Origin: Peptostreptococcus russellii
Lineage (GTDB): Bacteria; Bacillota; Clostridia; Peptostreptococcales; Peptostreptococcaceae
DNA: 64,000 nt
NCBI RefSeq assembly: GCF_003012055.1
Contig: NZ_JYGE01000004.1
Span: 1-64,000, forward strand
Direction of reading: 5' to 3'
The translations under genes and the position numbers were made by a program. Positions 5,432-32,260 of the stretch are shown here, piece by piece (position 1 is the first letter of the stretch; every line of letters begins with the position of its first letter). The notes under the pieces are model-generated. The model made no database searches. It had not been told where the DNA came from and saw only the letters and a list, made by a program, of their open reading frames with translations.

Positions 5432-6742
5432 TTAATCTTCAAAAACAGTCTGTCCATCAACTTCTGTAGTCAATGCTTCAAGTGCTTTTTCAACTAATTT
5501 TCTTCTTAGAGCCTTTTCTTCTTCATGTTCTAAAGCAGGATTTCCAAGAGGATGAGGTATAGCTATTGTTGGAACTATTCTATTAGCACCAACTGTTAGT
5601 GAAATAGGAACAACTGTACACATATGTACTACAGGTAGTCCAGCTCTTTCTATTTCCTTTACCATCGTTGCACCGCAACGAGTACAAGTACCTCACGTAG
5701 AAGTTAATATAACTGCATCCACACCATCAGCTATTAACTTCTGTGCATATTCTGCTGCAAATGCCTTAGAAGATGCAACTGCAGTACCATTACCAACAGT
5801 TGTGTAGAACTTGTTGTATAACTTTCCTATTACGCCTTCTTTTTCAAGGTCTCTTAATACGTCCACAGGAAGAACTCTATCAGAGTCTTCATTTGCATAA
5901 GATGGGTCATATCCACCATGTGCAGTTTCCCAACCTTCTTCAGTTAAGTCTTCTACACCTGTAATATCATATTCACCATACTTAGTAGCATTTGATGATT
6001 CTATTCTATCAGGGTTACCCTTTGGAACTATACCACCTGATGTGCAAAGTGCTATTGTACACTTAGAAAGATCTTTAACCGCTGGGTTTGGATCTACTCT
6101 ATCGAAACTTGGCATTGGATATTCTGTTTTGAATTCTTCGCCATTTATTTTCTTTATTAGCATATCAACGGCTCTCTTAGATCCTCTATCTTCAGCAAAG
6201 TAGTTTACTCTTACACCCTTTTCGATGTATCCATCTTCTTCTGGAGAACCTATTTCTTCGCCCTTAGCAAGCTTTGCACCTAATTTTGCAATCTTTGGTA
6301 GAGCCTTTCTCATACCTGCTGCAGAATTTGAAGTTTCTACTATGTATATCTCTTTCTTATACATGTCTGCACCAGGATTTTCTATATACATACCTGTTAA
6401 GCAAGGTATGTTTAATTCATTCTTTACAACACTAGTGATAGTACCACAAGCAACTCCGTATCTACCTGCATTAAATGCTGGTCCAGCTATAAATAACTGT
6501 GGATCAAATCCCTTGATCATCTCTAATACTTCTTCACTTGCTTCATCTATATTTTCATTGAAGTAGCTATCTCCACAAACAACTGAAGCTACTATTTCAA
6601 AATCTTCGCCCAATTTTTTCTGTAATTGATTACTTACTGGAGGAAGTTCTTCCATAACCTTTGGTTCAACATCTGCCTTTTCTTCTCCACCTATTCCTGC
6701 AAAGAATTGGTTGATATAATGAACTACTCTAATCTTTGACAT
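5432..6742 (-). CDS. grdB: glycine reductase component B, gamma subunit (selenoprotein)
   Basis: 436 residues including selenocysteine at position 350, encoded by TGA at 5693-5695. Reading through gives Thr-Ser-Thr-Sec-Gly-Thr-Cys-Thr-Arg-Cys-Gly, the conserved GrdB active site with a CxxC after the Sec. GrdB binds glycine as a Schiff base on GrdE and passes it to GrdA as a Se-carboxymethyl group. The start used (MSKIRVVHYINQFFAG) matches the family. A Met five codons upstream contains the GGGAGGT box and is rejected. Without decoding the UGA, the gene looks like two ORFs. A short hairpin that fits a bacterial SECIS follows the UGA. Confidence 0.96.
5666..5680 (-). promoter_or_regulatory. bacterial SECIS hairpin in grdB
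   Basis: On the minus strand, 12 bases after the UGA, the sequence CGTTGC-GGT-GCAACG forms a perfect 6-bp stem with a GGU loop. Bacterial SECIS elements sit about this far from the UGA and expose a GGU-type loop to SelB. Identification rests on position, stem and loop; SelB recognition in this organism is inferred. Confidence 0.7.
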
Positions 6743-10923: not shown

Positions 10924-10954
10924 TGTCATATTATTCACCTTCAGAGATACGTCC

Positions 10955-11043
10955 AATTCTACTTCCTTTACCTGAGAAATTCATAACATTCTTGACGGAA
11001 ATGTTACTTGTCCCTTCGGTGGCAATTGCTCTCTCATAGAATC
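10955..11043 (-). ncRNA. glycine riboswitch (single aptamer)
   Basis: The minus-strand RNA has P1 formed by GATTCTA and TAGAATT, the opening GAGAG paired with TCTCAGG, and the conserved core CCACCGAAGGGACAAG. The CTCAGGTAAAGGA block typical of glycine aptamers follows. One full aptamer is seen. The following GGACGTATCTCTGAAGG stretch resembles the linker or remnant second aptamer of singlet glycine riboswitches. It is followed by an intrinsic terminator and the grd operon, consistent with glycine-induced expression of glycine reductase. Confidence 0.85.
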
Positions 11044-11168
11044 TTCATCCGCATATTTAATTATTAGTTGTCTAACTTTTATACAATTAGCAAGTACATC
11101 TGTAAGATAATTGTACAACATCTTCTATCAAAAAATCAAGACTTATTTTTTAAAAGTTTTTTTAACTT

Positions 11169-25284: not shown

Positions 25285-26193
25285 TTGAGAAAAAAAGGTA
25301 ATAACTTTAATCCTGATGAAAATTTTGATGATTATAATAATTCATCAGATGATTTTGAACAAACATATGACTCTAATGGCAATAAAAAGAAGATAATCAT
25401 TACAGTTATTGCTGTCATCGCAGTAATCGCTATCATTTTTGTAGGCTTCTTTTTAAAGAACAAATACGAAATCTCTTCTATGGAAAAAAAGGCAGAGAAC
25501 TTTATAGAAATAGAAGATTATGATGAAGCTCTAAAGTTATACTCTGAACTATATTCTAAAACAGGAAATATAGAGTATAAATCTCTAAAAAATCAGCTTG
25601 AAATAAAAAAAGAAATCTCTGATACAATAAAGGAAGCTGATGATCAGGAAAAAAGAGGAGAACTAATAAAAGCATTAACCTTGTACAAAATGATTCCTAG
25701 AGAAGATGAAAAATCTTATAAAATAGCCTCAACTGAGATTGAATCTATACAAAAAGATATAATTAGTAAAGCTAATTCTTTTATAGAATCTGGAAATAAC
25801 TCTGAAGCTTCTTCTTTATTATCAGAGTATATATCAATTATGCCTGATGATAAGAAGGGTGTTGAACTCTATAAAAAATCTTCTGGTAAAACAGACTCCC
25901 AAGTAAAAGAAATCATTGTAAATAAAGAAGTTCCAGTAGCTGTAGAAAGTACAAATAACTCTAACTCTGGAAACAGTGTTGCGGATGCTATCAAGGGTAC
26001 ATACCAGTACATAACTTCTGGAGAAGCAAATGTAAGATCTTCACCAAGTAAGGGTTCATCAGTTACAGGCACAGTCTCAAGAGGTGATGAAGTCTATATA
26101 TATGATACATACGTTGAATCAGCTAGCAGAATCTGGTGTAGAACTGATTTAGGCTGGATATCATACAATACTATGAACAATACGATAAGATAG
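25285..26193 (+). CDS. single-pass membrane protein with helical repeat and SH3b domains
   Basis: 302 residues. A charged cytosolic N-terminus (about 36 residues, Asp/Asn-rich) precedes one transmembrane helix (about 37-57). An extracellular helical region follows (60-200) that resembles tetratricopeptide-type repeats (pattern DYDEALKLYSEL, GELIKALTLYKMI, NSEASSLLSEYI). A C-terminal bacterial SH3 domain (about 235-300) has the typical EANVRSSPSKGSSVTGTV start and WCRTDLGWIS end. SH3b domains usually bind cell wall. Specific function is unknown. Starts at TTG with GGAGGG upstream; monocistronic with its own promoter and terminator. Confidence 0.72.
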   Translation: MRKKGNNFNPDENFDDYNNSSDDFEQTYDSNGNKKKIIITVIAVIAVIAIIFVGFFLKNKYEISSMEKKAENFIEIEDYDEALKLYSELYSKTGNIEYKSLKNQLEIKKEISDTIKEADDQEKRGELIKALTLYKMIPREDEKSYKIASTEIESIQKDIISKANSFIESGNNSEASSLLSEYISIMPDDKKGVELYKKSSGKTDSQVKEIIVNKEVPVAVESTNNSNSGNSVADAIKGTYQYITSGEANVRSSPSKGSSVTGTVSRGDEVYIYDTYVESASRIWCRTDLGWISYNTMNNTIR

Positions 26194-26224
26194 TTATATA
26201 AAACTATATCTTACTTATTAACTT

Positions 26225-26255
26225 AAAAAGGCTATCTCTTAGAGATAGCCTTTTT
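26225..26255. terminator. bidirectional terminator
   Basis: Near-perfect palindrome AAAAAGGCTATCTCT/AGAGATAGCCTTTTT between the convergent SH3-domain and activator genes, with A/T runs on both sides serving both strands. Confidence 0.88.
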
Positions 26256-26299
26256 AATATTTCAATATAAAACACTGCTTTTTATATTTTTTAATTCTC

Positions 26300-27079
26300 T
26301 TACTTCTTTTTTGACTTTAGGTATTTGTCCTCTGCAATTAAAGATACTCCTAAAGCACCTGCATACCTACCATATTCAGAGGTATGAACAGGAAGTTTAA
26401 TTTTTTTAGACAAAGAATCTGCAAAAAATTCACTGTGACTAAGACCACCAGTTAAAACAACATATTCAGAGTTTGCAAACTTGCTAAATAATTGAGCTAC
26501 TTTACCTGCAACAGAATCTACTACGCCTGCTGCGATATCTGATCTTTTTCTTCCTTCACCGATATAGTTTATTATTTCTGATTCAGCAAATACAGTACAC
26601 AATGAGCTTATTGGAAGAATTTCTCCTTCTTGAGCAAGCTTAAATAAATCATTTATATCAACACCTAATCTATTAGCCATAACTTCAATAAACTTACCTG
26701 TACCAGCGGAGCACTTATCATTCATCAGAAAATCTGAAACGAAAGAATCTTCTATCTTGATGATTTTCGTATCCTGACCTCCGATATCTATGATAGTACA
26801 GTTTCCTCCCACCATTTCATGGCCGCCTCTTCCATGGCAAGTAATCTCTGTGACTACATAGTCTGCAAAGTCAACAGCAACCCTTCCATATCCAGTGGCT
26901 CCCACTACTACTTCATCGCTATTTACATCAATATCATTTTCTTTTAATTTATCAACTATTGCCGATGCAGTTTCTTTACTGCTCCAGCCAGTAGGTATAA
27001 CAAACTCATACCTTTTATCTTCTTTTCTAGCCACGACTTTTGATGCAGTAGAGCCTATGTCTATTCCTACATAAATCAT
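26300..27079 (-). CDS. ATP-dependent activator of a double-cubane / 2-hydroxyacyl-CoA dehydratase-type enzyme
   Basis: 259 residues of the BcrAD/BadFG (HgdC-like) ASKHA ATPase family. It has the phosphate-binding YVGIDIGSTASKVV, DIGGQDTKII, NDKCSAGTGKFIE (Cys of the bridging [4Fe-4S] cluster) and a second Cys in ISSLCTVFAESE. The dimer holds one cluster and drives an electron into its partner by ATP hydrolysis. The partner is evidently the cluster protein two genes upstream. It follows the DUF3343 gene by 14 bp. Confidence 0.9.
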   Translation of the reverse strand: MIYVGIDIGSTASKVVARKEDKRYEFVIPTGWSSKETASAIVDKLKENDIDVNSDEVVVGATGYGRVAVDFADYVVTEITCHGRGGHEMVGGNCTIIDIGGQDTKIIKIEDSFVSDFLMNDKCSAGTGKFIEVMANRLGVDINDLFKLAQEGEILPISSLCTVFAESEIINYIGEGRKRSDIAAGVVDSVAGKVAQLFSKFANSEYVVLTGGLSHSEFFADSLSKKIKLPVHTSEYGRYAGALGVSLIAEDKYLKSKKK

Positions 27080-27093
27080 ACTTCACATCCTCA

Positions 27094-27351
27094 CTAACAA
27101 TACACATCTCTATTAGGATTTATGTCCCTTTCAAGAGATTCTATTGCTATTATCTCTATATCATTTTCCTTAACCACTCTTTTTACATCTTCAAGTTCAT
27201 CTTCCTCAACTATCAGTGATATACCGCAGCACTTACTAAGTGACCTTGGAGTTGGAGATATGGTTGACTTTAAAGAATTCTCCTTTAAAAGAGAGTTTAA
27301 TTTCAAACCATTTTCGTGGTTATTAAATAATACATAAAAAATTTTTTCCAT
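27094..27351 (-). CDS. DUF3343 protein, putative Se/S carrier-like
   Basis: 85 residues. The DUF3343 family is described as a putative selenium/sulfur carrier because of its conserved Cys and its linkage to selenium genes. Here a Cys41-Cys42 pair lies in SLSKCCGISLIV, the conserved centre. The Met at 27351 is preferred over an in-frame start five codons upstream because GAGGAG lies just before it. It sits between the cluster protein (16 bp) and its activator (14 bp), so all three are one operon. Confidence 0.8.
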   Translation of the reverse strand: MEKIFYVLFNNHENGLKLNSLLKENSLKSTISPTPRSLSKCCGISLIVEEDELEDVKRVVKENDIEIIAIESLERDINPNRDVYC

Positions 27352-27367
27352 TAAAACACTCCTCAAA

Positions 27368-28645
27368 CTATCTGTCTAACATTTCTATAAATGCACCAAC
27401 TCTAGTTCTTAACTGCTGTACATCAGAATCAGTGTAGTCAGTTTCTATACCCAGTACTGGTATCCCAGCCTTCTTTAATTCTCTTTCTACTAGGAATCCT
27501 TCTGTGTCATATAGATTACAGAATTTAAGATTTACATCTATTACACCATCTACATCATATTCCTTACATAGTCTTATTATATCGTCTATTCTAGCATTGT
27601 TTGGAGTAAAGCAAGCACAGTTTATTCCCATATATCTCTCAGCTAGTGCATCAATTTGTCCTTCTAAAGTAGTTTGAGTCTCGTCTACTGGTCTTTCAAA
27701 GTATCTAGTACCTGTACACATTTCTTCACATACTACTGCACCACCAGAAGTTTCAACTATATTATGTATCTTCCAGTTTGGTATTGCAAGTGGAGTACCT
27801 GCAAGAAGTATTCTCTTTGTTCCAGATTCGAATACACTTACACCTTCTTCTACTCTCTTGTCTAGTTCATCACAAATCTTATTAGTCATCTCAGTGAATC
27901 TTGTTGGGTCATCATAAAATGCTATCTGAGATATTAATAAACTATCTTTTCCTGAAATAGGAATATTTTTATTCTTTCTAGCAGAGTAAAGTCTTTCAAG
28001 AGCACGTCTCTTGTCATTTATCATCTTTATAGAAGCTGCTAGATTTTCTTCAGTTACCTTGTTTCCTGTAAATTCTTCAACCTTTTCCTTGAACTCTACT
28101 ATTTCTTCAGACCAAGCCTTATAGTCTTTTCTTCTCTTCATCTGAGGTAGGTCCATAATGTGCATAGGAACTTCTTCACCTAATATTTCCCAAGCTTTTT
28201 TCTTACCATCACAAGTAGTTTCTCCTACATACATATCTGCTATTTTAAAGAAAGGACATGTTCCATCAAGTCTTGCTCCTACAGATGCCTTTATAAGTGG
28301 ACAGGTATTAGTTGGAAGAACCTTTTCTCCTCCTGGAACCCAAAACTGTGATCCACCACATAGACCTGTGGCAATACCACCTGCTGCAAATATTACTTCA
28401 TCTGGAACGTAAACACAGAATGTACCAAACACCTTTGTTCCATTTTCTTTTTGAGCCTTAACTAATTCAGCTGGTCTAACTCCATGTATTTCAGACACAA
28501 CAAAATCAAAATATCCCATATTTTCTGGTCTATTTTTTTGAGATAGATATACATCTGTAAATGCCATCGGTAGAACTTCACATAATTGATCATGAGTTTC
28601 TACATCCATCCCCAATTCTTTCCACATTTCTCTGTAATCAGCCAT
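27368..28645 (-). CDS. double-cubane-cluster-containing anaerobic reductase
   Basis: 425 residues of the 2-hydroxyacyl-CoA dehydratase (HgdB/FldB-like) superfamily, in the single-chain group called double-cubane cluster proteins. It has many Cys in characteristic places: FCVYVPDEVIFAAG, GLCGGSQF, NTCPLIKAS, GTCPFFK, ETTCDGKKK, VCEEMCTG, INCACF and KFCNLYD. Members use the ATPase activator to reach very low potentials and reduce small inert molecules; the natural substrate is unknown. The start has GGGGAGG. It heads a three-gene operon with DUF3343 and the activator. Confidence 0.88.
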   Translation of the reverse strand: MADYREMWKELGMDVETHDQLCEVLPMAFTDVYLSQKNRPENMGYFDFVVSEIHGVRPAELVKAQKENGTKVFGTFCVYVPDEVIFAAGGIATGLCGGSQFWVPGGEKVLPTNTCPLIKASVGARLDGTCPFFKIADMYVGETTCDGKKKAWEILGEEVPMHIMDLPQMKRRKDYKAWSEEIVEFKEKVEEFTGNKVTEENLAASIKMINDKRRALERLYSARKNKNIPISGKDSLLISQIAFYDDPTRFTEMTNKICDELDKRVEEGVSVFESGTKRILLAGTPLAIPNWKIHNIVETSGGAVVCEEMCTGTRYFERPVDETQTTLEGQIDALAERYMGINCACFTPNNARIDDIIRLCKEYDVDGVIDVNLKFCNLYDTEGFLVERELKKAGIPVLGIETDYTDSDVQQLRTRVGAFIEMLDR

Positions 28646-28963
28646 TAATATTTCCTCCCCTAATTATTATTTATTAAAATTTTTAATTAAAAATCTAACC
28701 TAAACTTAAAAAATAAATTCAATCAGACCTCAGTCTCAATATTATCACAATAAGAAGTAAACTTAAATATACTTGAACCTTCATTCATTTTTTTAATAGT
28801 TTAACATTCTGATATCGATTTCCTCTATAGCTTTTAAGTTGTTTTTAGTTCTTTAAATTCTTATATATTAGAAGTATCTATATTAGGCTTTTATACTATA
28901 AAATATTAATAATTCTCTTTTAAATATTACCTTAATAATTTTTCACAATAAAATATTTCATTT
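28646..28963. other. 318-bp gap between the fusion gene and the reductase operon
   Basis: AT-rich. A possible minus-strand promoter (TTTAAG, 17 bp, TAATAT) lies near the middle but is weak. No terminator hairpin with T-run is apparent after the fusion gene, so read-through into the reductase operon is possible. Confidence 0.4.
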
Positions 28964-30805
28964 TTAAAAGCTGCTCTCTATATACTTTATTGCATCAATT
29001 ATCTCAGCTACATCATATTCATTATTAAAGTAGCCAAGTGTGAATCTAATACTTCCATTTGGGAAACTTCCTTCTACCATATGCGTGCATGGAGAACACT
29101 GTATTCCTACTCTAGTCATTATTTTCCTGCTGGCATCTATGTTGAATGCTACCATAGCATCATCCTGATTTTTCATGGATAGTGAACAAAAAGAACCGTG
29201 TCCTGAAACAATTGTTCCATCAATATCTTTAAGACCCGCTCTTAATTTTTTCCCTAAACTATGTTTCTTACCTATTATATTCCTAAGCCCTACGCTTTCT
29301 ATATAATCAATAGCTGCTCCCATAGCCATTATCATAGGAGTTGACATAGTTCCAGCCTCTAACTTATCTGGCAGACTTTCAGGCATATTGGGACTATTTG
29401 ATTGACTTCCTGTTCCACCATAAATCAATGCATCTATATTCTTTGCCATATCTTCTTTTATTACTGATGCTGCTATTCCCTCAGGTCCCATAAGACCGAT
29501 ATGCCCACTCAAAATAAAAGCATCTGCCTTTAATTTCTCTATGTTTATTTCTCTTTCACATATACTTTGAACGCCATCTATTACATAATAAATATTCTTT
29601 TCTTCACAGATTCTTCCAATTTCTTCTGCCTCCTCTAGATAATGTCCCGTAATATTATCTGTTAAAGTAATAAATACTAACTTGGTTTTCTCTGTTATTA
29701 AATTTTTTAACTCACTAATATCATATTTTTTATTTTCTTCTTCTAAATTTTCACTTTCATAGAGCGGCTTATCATTCAAGCTAGAATGTTTTTCAATGTC
29801 TATACTTTCTTTTTTACTATCTGATCTCAGTCCAAAGCTTGAGCTTTTTTCTCCATTCTTTTCAGACCAAATTTTAACAGATACATCCTTATTTTTTAGA
29901 TATTCAACCGTTCTCCAAGAAGAATTGTGCATACGCTCATCTACTATTATCTCATCTCCCTTGGATAAGTAGCCTCTTAAATTCATATTGATAGCTTCTG
30001 TTGCTGAAGGTGAAAATATGGTTACATAATCTTTTGGAGCGTGTAAAAATTTTGCAATCTTATCTCTTACATCTATTACCTTAGAAGATAGGTTATATGC
30101 CTTCATATATGTTCCCCTGTTAATGCTAAAGGACTCATTGTCTATAAACTCAGACACTCTTGTGCTTACACCTGGTGCCTTTGGATAGCAAGTAGATGCA
30201 TTATCTACATATATCTCTGCTCCCAATACTTTTCTTATAGAATATGGGTCAACTACTGTATGGTATTCACCGTTTTCTCCACAAACATCTACACCTTCTA
30301 TTTTTTTTATGCTCTCTATAAATTCTCTATCAAAATCTCTTCCTAGCATATCTTTTGCTAATTTATTTTCATCTAACTTCTTTATTTTTGCTTTCAAATC
30401 ACTATTTAAAAAATCCTCTACTATTTCCGATCTATTTTTAAACATTAAAGGGTGTATACATTCAATACAAACATTATCACATCTTCTCTTATTCCAAGAT
30501 AAATGTTGCAATATATCTATATCCCCAAATACACAGGCTCTGGCACCTAATTTTTTAGATTTTTCTAAAGCAGCTTCAAACTCCTTTTCATAATTATCTA
30601 TATCCGTGTCCGTAAATATTACTTCGCATCTCAAAATATCTGCTACTTTTTTATAATATTCCTTGTCGAGACCGTGTGTCCATGAAGTCTTCATATCTTC
30701 TCTCGTTGAAACTATTATTGCAACTAAACGTCCCCCTCTTTCCAAAGTTTGTTTGATTGCCATAAGAGAATCTTTTCCACCACTAAAAGACGCTACAAAT
30801 TCCAC
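28964..30805 (-). CDS. fusion: Dph6-type ATP pyrophosphatase + cysteine desulfurase-like domain without PLP lysine
   Basis: 613 residues in two domains. Residues 1-190 match the Dph6/diphthine-ammonia-ligase ATP pyrophosphatase family: PP-loop SGGKDS (8-13), a Cys-rich CDNVCIEC (109-116), LGRDFD and the hallmark GENGEYHT (176-183). Residues 198-613 match the class V aminotransferase/cysteine desulfurase family (EF2568 type): DNASTCYPK, SATEAINMNLRG, MHNS, DGVQS, YGGTGS, and a C-terminal GIQCSPCTH with Cys570/573 where desulfurases have the catalytic Cys. The position of the PLP lysine (SGHK in the family) reads SGHI, Ile436 (ATC, 29498-29500). A polar insertion of about 45 residues lies in the middle. 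GTG start after GGGGGG. tRNA-Sec lies just upstream. Function unknown; S/Se or ammonia transfer to an adenylated substrate is inferred. Confidence 0.8.
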   Translation of the reverse strand: MEFVASFSGGKDSLMAIKQTLERGGRLVAIIVSTREDMKTSWTHGLDKEYYKKVADILRCEVIFTDTDIDNYEKEFEAALEKSKKLGARACVFGDIDILQHLSWNKRRCDNVCIECIHPLMFKNRSEIVEDFLNSDLKAKIKKLDENKLAKDMLGRDFDREFIESIKKIEGVDVCGENGEYHTVVDPYSIRKVLGAEIYVDNASTCYPKAPGVSTRVSEFIDNESFSINRGTYMKAYNLSSKVIDVRDKIAKFLHAPKDYVTIFSPSATEAINMNLRGYLSKGDEIIVDERMHNSSWRTVEYLKNKDVSVKIWSEKNGEKSSSFGLRSDSKKESIDIEKHSSLNDKPLYESENLEEENKKYDISELKNLITEKTKLVFITLTDNITGHYLEEAEEIGRICEEKNIYYVIDGVQSICEREINIEKLKADAFILSGHIGLMGPEGIAASVIKEDMAKNIDALIYGGTGSQSNSPNMPESLPDKLEAGTMSTPMIMAMGAAIDYIESVGLRNIIGKKHSLGKKLRAGLKDIDGTIVSGHGSFCSLSMKNQDDAMVAFNIDASRKIMTRVGIQCSPCTHMVEGSFPNGSIRFTLGYFNNEYDVAEIIDAIKYIESSF

Positions 30806-30842
30806 AATATACCCCCCTAATTATTATTTTTTACAATAAAAA

Positions 30843-30877
30843 ACTACTATTTTAAGTATAACACAAAAAATAGTAGT
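30843..30877 (-). terminator. selC terminator
   Basis: 11-bp perfect stem ACTACTATTTT/AAAATAGTAGT followed on the minus strand by TTTTTTATT. It ends tRNA-Sec transcription before the fusion gene, though some read-through is possible. Confidence 0.8.
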
Positions 30878-30890
30878 AAATATACAATAT

Positions 30891-30987
30891 TGGCGGGAGT
30901 GTGTGAGAATCGAACTCACCCAAGAAGCTACTAACCCCTCATACTAGTTTTGAAGACTAGAGAGCACACCAGCACTCATTCACCCCC
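30891..30987 (-). tRNA. selC: tRNA-Sec (anticodon TCA)
   Basis: 97 nt including an encoded CCA. The anticodon arm CTAGT-CTTCAAA-ACTAG places TCA in the centre of the loop, which reads UGA. There is a long variable arm, a T-arm GTGAG-TTCGATT-CTCAC, a long acceptor stem starting GGGGGTGA, and a D-arm of the tRNA-Sec type (GAGTGC-TGGTGT-GCTCTC). The eighth acceptor pair (A-A) and one D-stem pair (T-T) are mismatches. It supplies selenocysteine for grdA and grdB in this window. Confidence 0.95.
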
Positions 30988-30999
30988 GAATACCTTATA

Positions 31000-31028
31000 A
31001 TAGTACCACAAAAAAACCTTCAATGCAA
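31000..31028 (-). promoter_or_regulatory. selC promoter
   Basis: On the minus strand, TTGCAT, 17 bp, TACTAT, with the -10 ending 13 bp before the mature tRNA 5' end. Confidence 0.65.
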
Positions 31029-31056
31029 TAGTTTTCATAAAAAGAATTATTTGATT

Positions 31057-31731
31057 TTATATATTCTCTATCTGCCAATCAATTTTTTCTTTTCCTATTG
31101 ATTCTAAAATTTCATTTATTTTTAAAAAATGGCCACAATCAAAAAATCCTCTATATGCTGAAAGTGGACTTGGATGAGGAGCTTCTAATATATAGTGTCT
31201 GCTCCTATCTATTAACTTTTTTTTACTCCTTGCATTTGCACCCCACAAAACAAATATAACAGCCTCTTCTCTATCACTCAATTTTTTTATTATATTATCT
31301 GTGAAAATTTCCCAGCCCATCCCCTTATGAGAATTTGCCTGATGAGCTCTCACTGTCAAGGCTGTATTTAAAAGAAGAACACCTTGTCTAGCCCACTTTA
31401 CCAAATATCCATTGTTAGGTATATATAGGCCCATCTCCTCATTTAACTCTTTATAAATATTTAAAAGTGATGGAGGAGTCTTTATTCCCTTTTTTACTGA
31501 AAAGGCTAAACCGTGGGCCTGCCCATTATTATGATATGGATCTTGTCCTAGTATTATTACTTTTGTGTCCTTGTAGGATGTATACTTTAGAGCATTAAAA
31601 ATTTCATACATATCAGGAAAAATCTCTTTAGTTGAATATTCTTCCTTTAAAAATTCTCTTAATTTTTTATAATAATCTTTTTCAAACTCATCTTTTAATA
31701 CATCATCCCAATCATTACCTATGTTTACCAT
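31057..31731 (-). CDS. ung: uracil-DNA glycosylase
   Basis: 224 residues, family 1 UDG. The catalytic [18 protein letters not shown] block and the C-terminal [10 protein letters not shown] loop are intact. It removes uracil from DNA. The ATG at 31731 is chosen; an upstream TTG would put the AAGGAG ribosome binding site inside the gene. Confidence 0.96.
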
Positions 31732-31888
31732 CTCAAACTCCTTAATCAACTTTATTTGCTATATATCAATTAGCCTATAATCTTTCATTAGAAATACAAT
31801 TGTAAGCAGCTATACTTTCACTAGCAAGTTACTTATTTAAATTGTCTAGATACTCAAAGTAAGTAATTATATTAACTTCTTAAAAATG

Positions 31889-32260
31889 CTATTGTGTTGA
31901 TACATCTAATTCTTTTTTGGACTTATCATCTGTCACTATCTTTATATTTATCTTATGAGGCAAGCATACAATACTTTGCCCAGGCTTATTTATAAATCCA
32001 GTATCTACACATACTCCATCAGGGCAATCTGCCTCTAGCATCTCAACACCATTATCGTGTATGTATACTACGTTTTTTTCATTACCATTTTTAATCGTAA
32101 TTTTTTCATTTGCATCTATAGGATATTCCTTGTAAAGCTTGTTATTTACATATATTTCTATCCTATCACTCTGACCTGAATTTATAGCCTTATTCGCAAA
32201 AAATGCTATAACTATTGCAAGTAATATTACTGCTATTAAAATAAAATCTTTCTTCTTCAT
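31889..32260 (-). CDS. NusG domain II-containing membrane-anchored protein
   Basis: 123 residues: one N-terminal transmembrane helix (about 6-25), then a small beta domain of the NusG_II family. This domain carries a conserved CPDGVCVDTGFINKPGQSIVCLPHK block with three Cys. It is predicted to lie outside the membrane. The family is often encoded beside apbE and quinone or flavin-related export genes, as here (divergent, 79 bp to the apbE start). Function is not established. Confidence 0.8.
   Translation of the reverse strand: MKKKDFILIAVILLAIVIAFFANKAINSGQSDRIEIYVNNKLYKEYPIDANEKITIKNGNEKNVVYIHDNGVEMLEADCPDGVCVDTGFINKPGQSIVCLPHKINIKIVTDDKSKKELDVSTQ

Follow-up and report, generated by a model that had tools for sequence, protein, structure and literature searches.

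The whole stretch of Peptostreptococcus DNA analysed here (the window; 64,000 nucleotides) contains a gene in which a PP-loop ATPase domain is joined to a class V desulfurase-like domain that has lost the PLP Schiff-base lysine of its family. Judged from sequence comparison, the Lys-less domain is best read as a derived pseudo-desulfurase of selenium metabolism, found in all sampled selenocysteine (Sec)-using Peptostreptococcus.

Architecture of the Fusion Gene

The gene, which starts with GTG, lies between a tRNA-Sec and genes for a double-cubane-cluster reductase and its activase:

26300..27079, minus strand: reductase activase gene (TIGR00241, 221.3 bits; cut-off 125.4)
27368..28645, minus strand: double-cubane-cluster anaerobic reductase gene (NF040772, 506.7 bits; cut-off 350)
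28964..30805, minus strand: fusion gene, 613 aa, PP-loop plus Lys-less desulfurase-like domain (open reading frame; PF01902 and PF00266 over cut-off)
28970..30217, minus strand: class V desulfurase-like domain, residues 197–612 (PF00266, 197.4 bits; TIGR01977, 286 of 377 bits; SufS-type fold)
30251..30796, minus strand: Dph6-like PP-loop ATPase domain, residues 4–185 (PF01902, 83.5 bits; SGGKDS read)
30891..30987, minus strand: tRNA-Sec, 85 bases upstream of the start codon (ARAGORN; RF01852, 64.5 bits)

The PP-loop domain shows the SGGKDS and G-E-x-G-E-[YF]-H-T motifs and exceeds the PF01902 cut-off, and its score against TIGR03679 (70.5 bits) is below the 197.3-bit cut-off for Dph6 diphthine-ammonia ligases. 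The C-terminal domain is placed among the class V aminotransferases by its PF00266 score (gathering threshold 21.5 bits) together with its SufS-type fold. It stays under the curated TIGR01977 cut-off of 377 bits and scores 196.5 bits against NF040779 (SclA), for which the cut-off is 525 bits. The best solved fold matches are SufS-type desulfurases, with TM scores by target of 0.81–0.87 among the 50 matches listed; a second structure comparison gave Z-scores of 43–46, an rmsd of 2.0–2.7 over 370–386 aligned residues and 21–27% identity, also among the 50 matches listed. The AlphaFold2 model of the whole fusion protein has a mean pLDDT of 91 and a pTM of 0.89. Within the desulfurase-like domain lies a low-confidence insert rich in Ser, Lys and Glu (residues 318–357, window 29735–29854); among the eight aligned copies, an insert at this position is otherwise present in the P. 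russellii copy only.

Replacement of the Schiff-Base Lysine by Isoleucine

The position of the PLP lysine is occupied as follows:

29498..29500, minus strand: codon ATC, Ile436 (Ile in all eight Lys-less rows; all 103 Lys-type rows have Lys)

Residues 433–436 of the window protein read S-G-H-I, as had been reported in a preliminary description of the locus. That description counted three changes between ATC and AAA; the codon in fact differs from AAA or AAG at two positions. Its view that a read error is not involved holds, because all eight copies of the domain in the genus carry Ile by way of three different codons (ATT, ATA or ATC in the other Peptostreptococcus species), which also rules out a single-strain oddity. 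The genus sample comprised nine Peptostreptococcus genomes, that of the window included, the named species being russellii, porci, anaerobius, faecalis, canis, and sp. D1. The desulfurase-like domain is present in eight of these genomes and reads His-Ile-Gly in every copy, so that the Schiff-base lysine of TIGR01977 (S/T-G-H-K) is absent throughout.

Outside Peptostreptococcus the lysine is present in every relative inspected. It is found in 74 of 74 relatives (the best 80 of 128 matches to two peptide patterns, minus six from the genus), and in a further 26 of 26 inspected top matches (26 of 32 rows, six having no locus), two sets that may overlap in species. Four homologues from other genera of the family (G016, G030, G036, and G069), encoded next to the same reductase gene, likewise all have it. 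A codon pattern for H-I-G-x-M-x-x-E-G had matches in eight of the nine genus genomes, the ninth being without the domain, and a single match, in an unrelated open reading frame (L204), in 384 other genomes of the order. None of the 74 and 26 inspected relatives showed an independent loss of the lysine; the codon pattern detects the same H-I-G signature only. A scan of the genome contigs with the window protein as single query returned no relative.

The preliminary description had proposed aligning the fused homologues and asking whether the lysine is absent in all of them. Ile is present in seven of seven fused copies as well as in the unfused one, and no close fused homologue with SGHK was encountered. 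Fusion is nevertheless not what accompanies the loss, because the P. faecalis (G006) copy is Lys-less and unfused, and a search of that genome for a PP-loop relative at E 0.001 found none. Conversely, one genome (G004) has a PP-loop gene and no desulfurase-like domain, and a rule tying the loss to fusion is rejected.

Conservation of the PLP Pocket

Conservation was gauged against the 103 Lys-type rows, in which 46 positions reach 95% conservation or more. Thirty-one of the 46 are unchanged in all eight Lys-less rows, among them the following residues:

29045..29047, minus strand: Arg587, substrate-carboxylate Arg equivalent, invariant
29096..29098, minus strand: Cys570, catalytic persulfide Cys equivalent, invariant (8 of 8)
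29501..29503, minus strand: His435 of the S-G-H-x motif, invariant
29567..29578, minus strand: Asp410 to Gln413, PLP ring contacts, D410 and Q413 invariant
29927..29929, minus strand: His293, PLP-stacking His equivalent, invariant
29999..30001, minus strand: Thr269, PLP-phosphate Thr equivalent, invariant

We take the roles of the equivalents of T269, H293, D410, Q413, C570, and R587 (PLP phosphate and ring, persulfide Cys, substrate carboxylate) to be those assigned by SufS biochemistry. The retention of the neighbouring motifs and of the C-terminal Cys, noted earlier from the window, is borne out by this comparison. The remaining 15 positions are not fully kept; they include S206, E292, G440, T465, and P572. 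Position 206 (window 30203-30190 region) is Ser in 99% of the Lys-type rows and Cys in six of the eight Lys-less rows, and this second Cys could pair with Cys570.

The domain might still be an ordinary PLP enzyme if another lysine formed the aldimine. Four lysines occur in at least seven of the eight Lys-less rows, K209 and K513 being invariant and K481 and K514 being Lys in seven. K209 is no replacement, because the Lys-type rows conserve it just as strongly; roughly half of those rows also have Lys at position 481, and K513 and K514 sit on helix 507–526 of the AlphaFold2 model. Conservation thus singles out no clear candidate for a newly conserved replacement, and we regard this explanation as highly improbable. 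With the Schiff-base lysine lost in all eight copies and no clear compensating lysine, the usual internal aldimine would be unable to form at the site, as the preliminary description had supposed.

Although the protein evolves fast, the residues that contact the phosphate and ring of PLP do not vary, which suggests that the domain still binds PLP, PMP, or a PLP adduct. It has the marks of a pseudoenzyme, in that an essential catalytic residue is lost, the fold is kept and the sequence is under purifying selection; on the side of activity, the assignment is a prediction.

Phylogeny and Rate of Change

In a maximum-likelihood tree of 49 rows, the eight Lys-less rows form one clade (support 100/100, stem 0.92), which has no settled branch point among the Lys-type rows. 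A single loss of the lysine, in or before the ancestor of Peptostreptococcus, would explain the distribution.

The domain has changed faster than its neighbours. Its identity within the genus is 39–59%, compared with 84–99% for the neighbouring reductase; in a Lys-type pair from other genera (G030 and G016), the desulfurases are 63% and the reductases 81% identical. Between the window and the P. russellii copy, dN/dS (NG86) is 0.18 for the domain and 0.05–0.07 for three neighbouring genes, and across two pairs it is about 0.18–0.20 compared with 0.03–0.07, values that are rough because synonymous sites are near saturation. Between P. porci (L041) and sp. D1 (L045), dS is 0.21 for the reductase, 0.20 for the activase, 0.50 for ung, and 2.3 for the fusion gene. 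So high a value amid low-dS neighbours suggests that recombination replaced the fusion allele or its flanks.

This acceleration is what would be expected of a relaxed or decaying domain, made redundant once the paralogues had taken over and surviving as the tail of a PP-loop protein. Against such decay, all eight frames are open, dN/dS is far below 1, the pocket residues are invariant, and P. faecalis retains the domain without the PP-loop part. Fast change combined with an invariant pocket argues for function under altered constraint over decay, which we consider decidedly unlikely.

The Selenium Locus in Peptostreptococcus

In all eight genomes that carry the Lys-less gene, tRNA-Sec lies upstream, and the reductase and activase genes lie downstream. 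In P. porci, a 566-aa open reading frame with CWB2 and C39-peptidase-like domains (L041:5880-7577) separates tRNA-Sec from the fusion gene. The genes selB, selA, and selD are found ~60–65 kb from the fusion gene on the same contig. The selD gene (L158:10461-11513, on contig 5 of the window's genome, G000) has one in-frame TGA near its start, as it does in all eight Sec-using genomes of the genus, so SelD is likely a selenoprotein itself in these genomes. The window also contains a SECIS_4 element (5655–5692) and a glycine riboswitch (10950–11048), both identified with Rfam, and the genes around them presumably form a glycine reductase operon, which they resemble. A promoter and terminator scan of 26000–31900 gave counts like those of shuffled sequence (30 vs 26.8, sd 5.2, and 2 vs 1.9, respectively).

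The genome of the window encodes two Lys-type TIGR01977 proteins over the cut-off, both on other contigs. One gene stands directly before yedE (TIGR04112, 457 bits) and the other ~1.5 kb from yedF (TIGR03527, 230 bits); their products are only ~28–35% identical to the Lys-less domain. Ordinary lyase chemistry therefore has other candidates in the cell.

G004, the genome without the domain, is also the only one of the nine with no SelA match at E 1e-40. Its best SelD match reaches 19.9 of 125 bits, its best tRNA-Sec match 34.9 of 47 bits (gathering), and its best double-cubane match 145.6 bits against a cut-off of 350. In the 6.9 kb examined at the corresponding locus, it has ung and a lone PP-loop gene, with no desulfurase-like match and no tRNA-Sec. 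For comparison, 67 of the 71 family genomes have a SelA above the cut-off. The desulfurase-like gene is thus co-located with, and co-occurs with, the Sec machinery, the co-occurrence resting on one loss event. The PP-loop tree places G004 as sister to the fused group (91/86), so it either split off before the fusion or lost the domain. Under either history its lack of the domain would be one event; its position with respect to the fusion is uncertain, the genus-level species tree being unrooted and weakly supported around it (69).

The Gene Trio in Other Clostridia

The best match outside the genus, among the matches listed, is from a rumen Eubacterium (L083, 36%), in which the genes for a Lys-type desulfurase, the reductase, and the activase are followed by tRNA-Sec on the other strand, selA, and selB. 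This desulfurase (440.9 bits) and that of L190 (435.9 bits) are of the Lys type and exceed the TIGR01977 cut-off. Two open reading frames split by a stop precede the desulfurase gene in L083; we take them to be a formate dehydrogenase gene interrupted by the stop.

The 291 sampled genomes of the class yielded 36 double-cubane regions outside the genus (37 matches). Eight of the 36 have selA, selB, selD, yedE, yedF, or tRNA-Sec within ~6.5 kb, several contigs ending early; three more have a desulfurase-like gene only, and 25 have neither selenium genes nor a desulfurase. The reductase and activase genes stand beside selenium genes in L083, L254, L258, L259, L260, L266, L267, L268, and L276, as they do in the window (26300–28645). 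The desulfurases of the L258, L260, L268, and L273 regions keep the lysine, that of L243 is of another type by motif, and that of L244 is unassigned. In 15 reductase regions from other genera of the same family, no tRNA-Sec, selA, selB, or selD was found within ~5 kb (0 of 15), and a Lys-type desulfurase adjoins the reductase in four. In a weak control, none of the selenium genes searched for occurred in 12 shorter regions surrounding lone PP-loop genes, whose products in the family are 37–42% identical.

The recurrence of reductase and activase genes beside selenium genes in Clostridia suggests that the double-cubane reductase has a role in selenium metabolism. Five of the nine Peptostreptococcus genomes carry a second double-cubane gene elsewhere, so the family has other uses as well, and the locus suggests that handling selenium is among the functions of these reductases.

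Possible Roles of the Lys-less Domain

SufS uses a Schiff-base lysine, and the standard cycle consists of internal aldimine formation, transaldimination, and proton transfer. Because that cycle cannot run as known without the lysine, our preferred reading is that the domain would help to supply selenium as a carrier or scaffold, Cys570 being the acceptor and the reductase the partner, a tentative proposal that we would put just short of an even prospect. The ancestor would have been a Lys-bearing, SclA-like selenocysteine lyase/desulfurase, a type that elsewhere can belong to a selenium module, in which desulfurase, double-cubane reductase, and activase genes lie near tRNA-Sec, selA, selB, or selD. 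After the one loss of its lysine, in or before the genus ancestor, and the joining of a PP-loop domain at the N-terminus in most species, the domain would no longer turn over Cys or Sec by itself and would take part in supplying selenium, either as a carrier or as a docking subunit. Cys570 would accept the selenium (or sulfur) that a Lys-bearing paralogue sets free, and the domain would work beside the ATP-driven double-cubane reductase and pass selenium towards SelD; PLP or a PLP-amino-acid adduct may remain in its pocket, held non-covalently. Of the roles suggested in the preliminary description, that of scaffold or of selenium or sulfur carrier has gained support, because the gene sits in a tRNA-Sec context that was no part of that finding, and a PLP-independent enzyme is less supported, the residues of the PLP pocket being invariant.

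The Lys-less chain could instead be a regulatory or structural subunit whose partner is a Lys-bearing TIGR01977 paralogue, which it would tune or dock in the way that SPTLC1, itself Lys-less, acts within serine palmitoyltransferase. Fold type I enzymes work as dimers whose two chains share the active sites, the genome offers two such paralogues near selenium genes, and the fold and pocket of the domain are conserved. The paralogues are, however, encoded on other contigs and are distant in sequence, and we judge such pairing unlikely. The invariant pocket is the feature that a bare carrier explains least well, and it may point to PLP-based chemistry or sensing. Also weighing against the carrier reading are the single event behind the Sec-less genome, the 15 reductase regions of the family without tRNA-Sec or selA, selB, or selD, the 25 of 36 class-wide regions with neither kind of gene, the second double-cubane genes of five Peptostreptococcus genomes, and the presence of Cys206 in six of eight copies only. 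A Lys-free protein could hold PLP non-covalently and form a stable external aldimine with Cys or Sec, acting as a sensor, or could perform PMP chemistry, which the Lys-less sugar dehydratases are known to run. Invariance of the PLP-ring and phosphate residues, the substrate Arg, and the Cys in a domain otherwise so divergent within the genus speaks for this possibility; Ile, however, is no acid-base stand-in for Lys, and a substitute base is not evident, which leaves it rather unlikely. A more elaborate proposal would join these elements into an unrecognised reductive module that delivers selenium to SelD. In it, a Lys-free PLP protein would trap Sec or Cys in a stable external aldimine, or bear selenium on Cys570, and pass the selenium to the double-cubane reductase, and in most species the PP-loop domain would be the module's activating ATPase. 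P. faecalis lacks the PP-loop part and G004 retains it without having selenium genes, and we hold the proposal as a whole to be quite improbable.

On the favoured carrier or scaffold reading as on its rivals, a natural Lys-to-Ile desulfurase with most of its pocket in place offers a test of chemistry versus a carrier Cys in selenium delivery.

Comparison with Known Systems

A 2026 review describes the route of selenium to SelD in the cell as incompletely elucidated (PMC13188914); that review and one from 2022 (PMC9312934) treat Sec lyase, SclA, and the delivery of selenium as a question still open. Haft and Self (2008) consider EF_2568 of TIGR01977 to be probably a selenocysteine lyase (PMC2276186), and a 2016 survey in ISME J notes a desulfurase-like gene near an orphan selD (PMC5029168). 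In PMC10418091, double-cubane appears in the reference list only. Literature searches, mostly covering non-subscription journals, returned no paper linking double-cubane proteins with selenium or selenocysteine among the matches listed. No paper was returned for Peptostreptococcus and selenocysteine lyase; a natural Lys-less cysteine desulfurase was absent from the titles and abstract openings among the matches listed, and the best 10 of 755 matches on Lys-less fold type I proteins held nothing useful.

The Lys-less domain is homologous over its whole length to the TIGR01977 (EF2568 family)/SclA proteins and shares their invariant pocket residues and Cys, and the neighbourhood of selenium genes is likewise a feature of EF2568 (PMC2276186). 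Unlike those proteins, it has Ile for the PLP lysine, scores under both cut-offs and is fused to a PP-loop domain in seven of eight copies. It resembles SufS/CsdB in predicted fold by both structure comparisons, and differs from them in its low identity and in lacking the Lys that SufS uses.

SPTLC1 is a Lys-less fold type I pseudo-subunit of serine palmitoyltransferase, and there, as here, the aldimine lysine is gone and the fold is retained; it belongs to a different family, whereas the window gene stands in a selenium context and keeps most pocket residues. The PP-loop domain is like Dph6/ATP_bind_4 in its PF01902 score and its two motifs, and unlike it in being fused and in scoring under the TIGR03679 cut-off. 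A double-cubane-cluster reductase was reportedly the subject of work by Jeoung and Dobbek in 2018. The neighbouring gene belongs to this family by its NF040772 score, with the difference that its partner at the window locus is a selenium-linked desulfurase-like protein.
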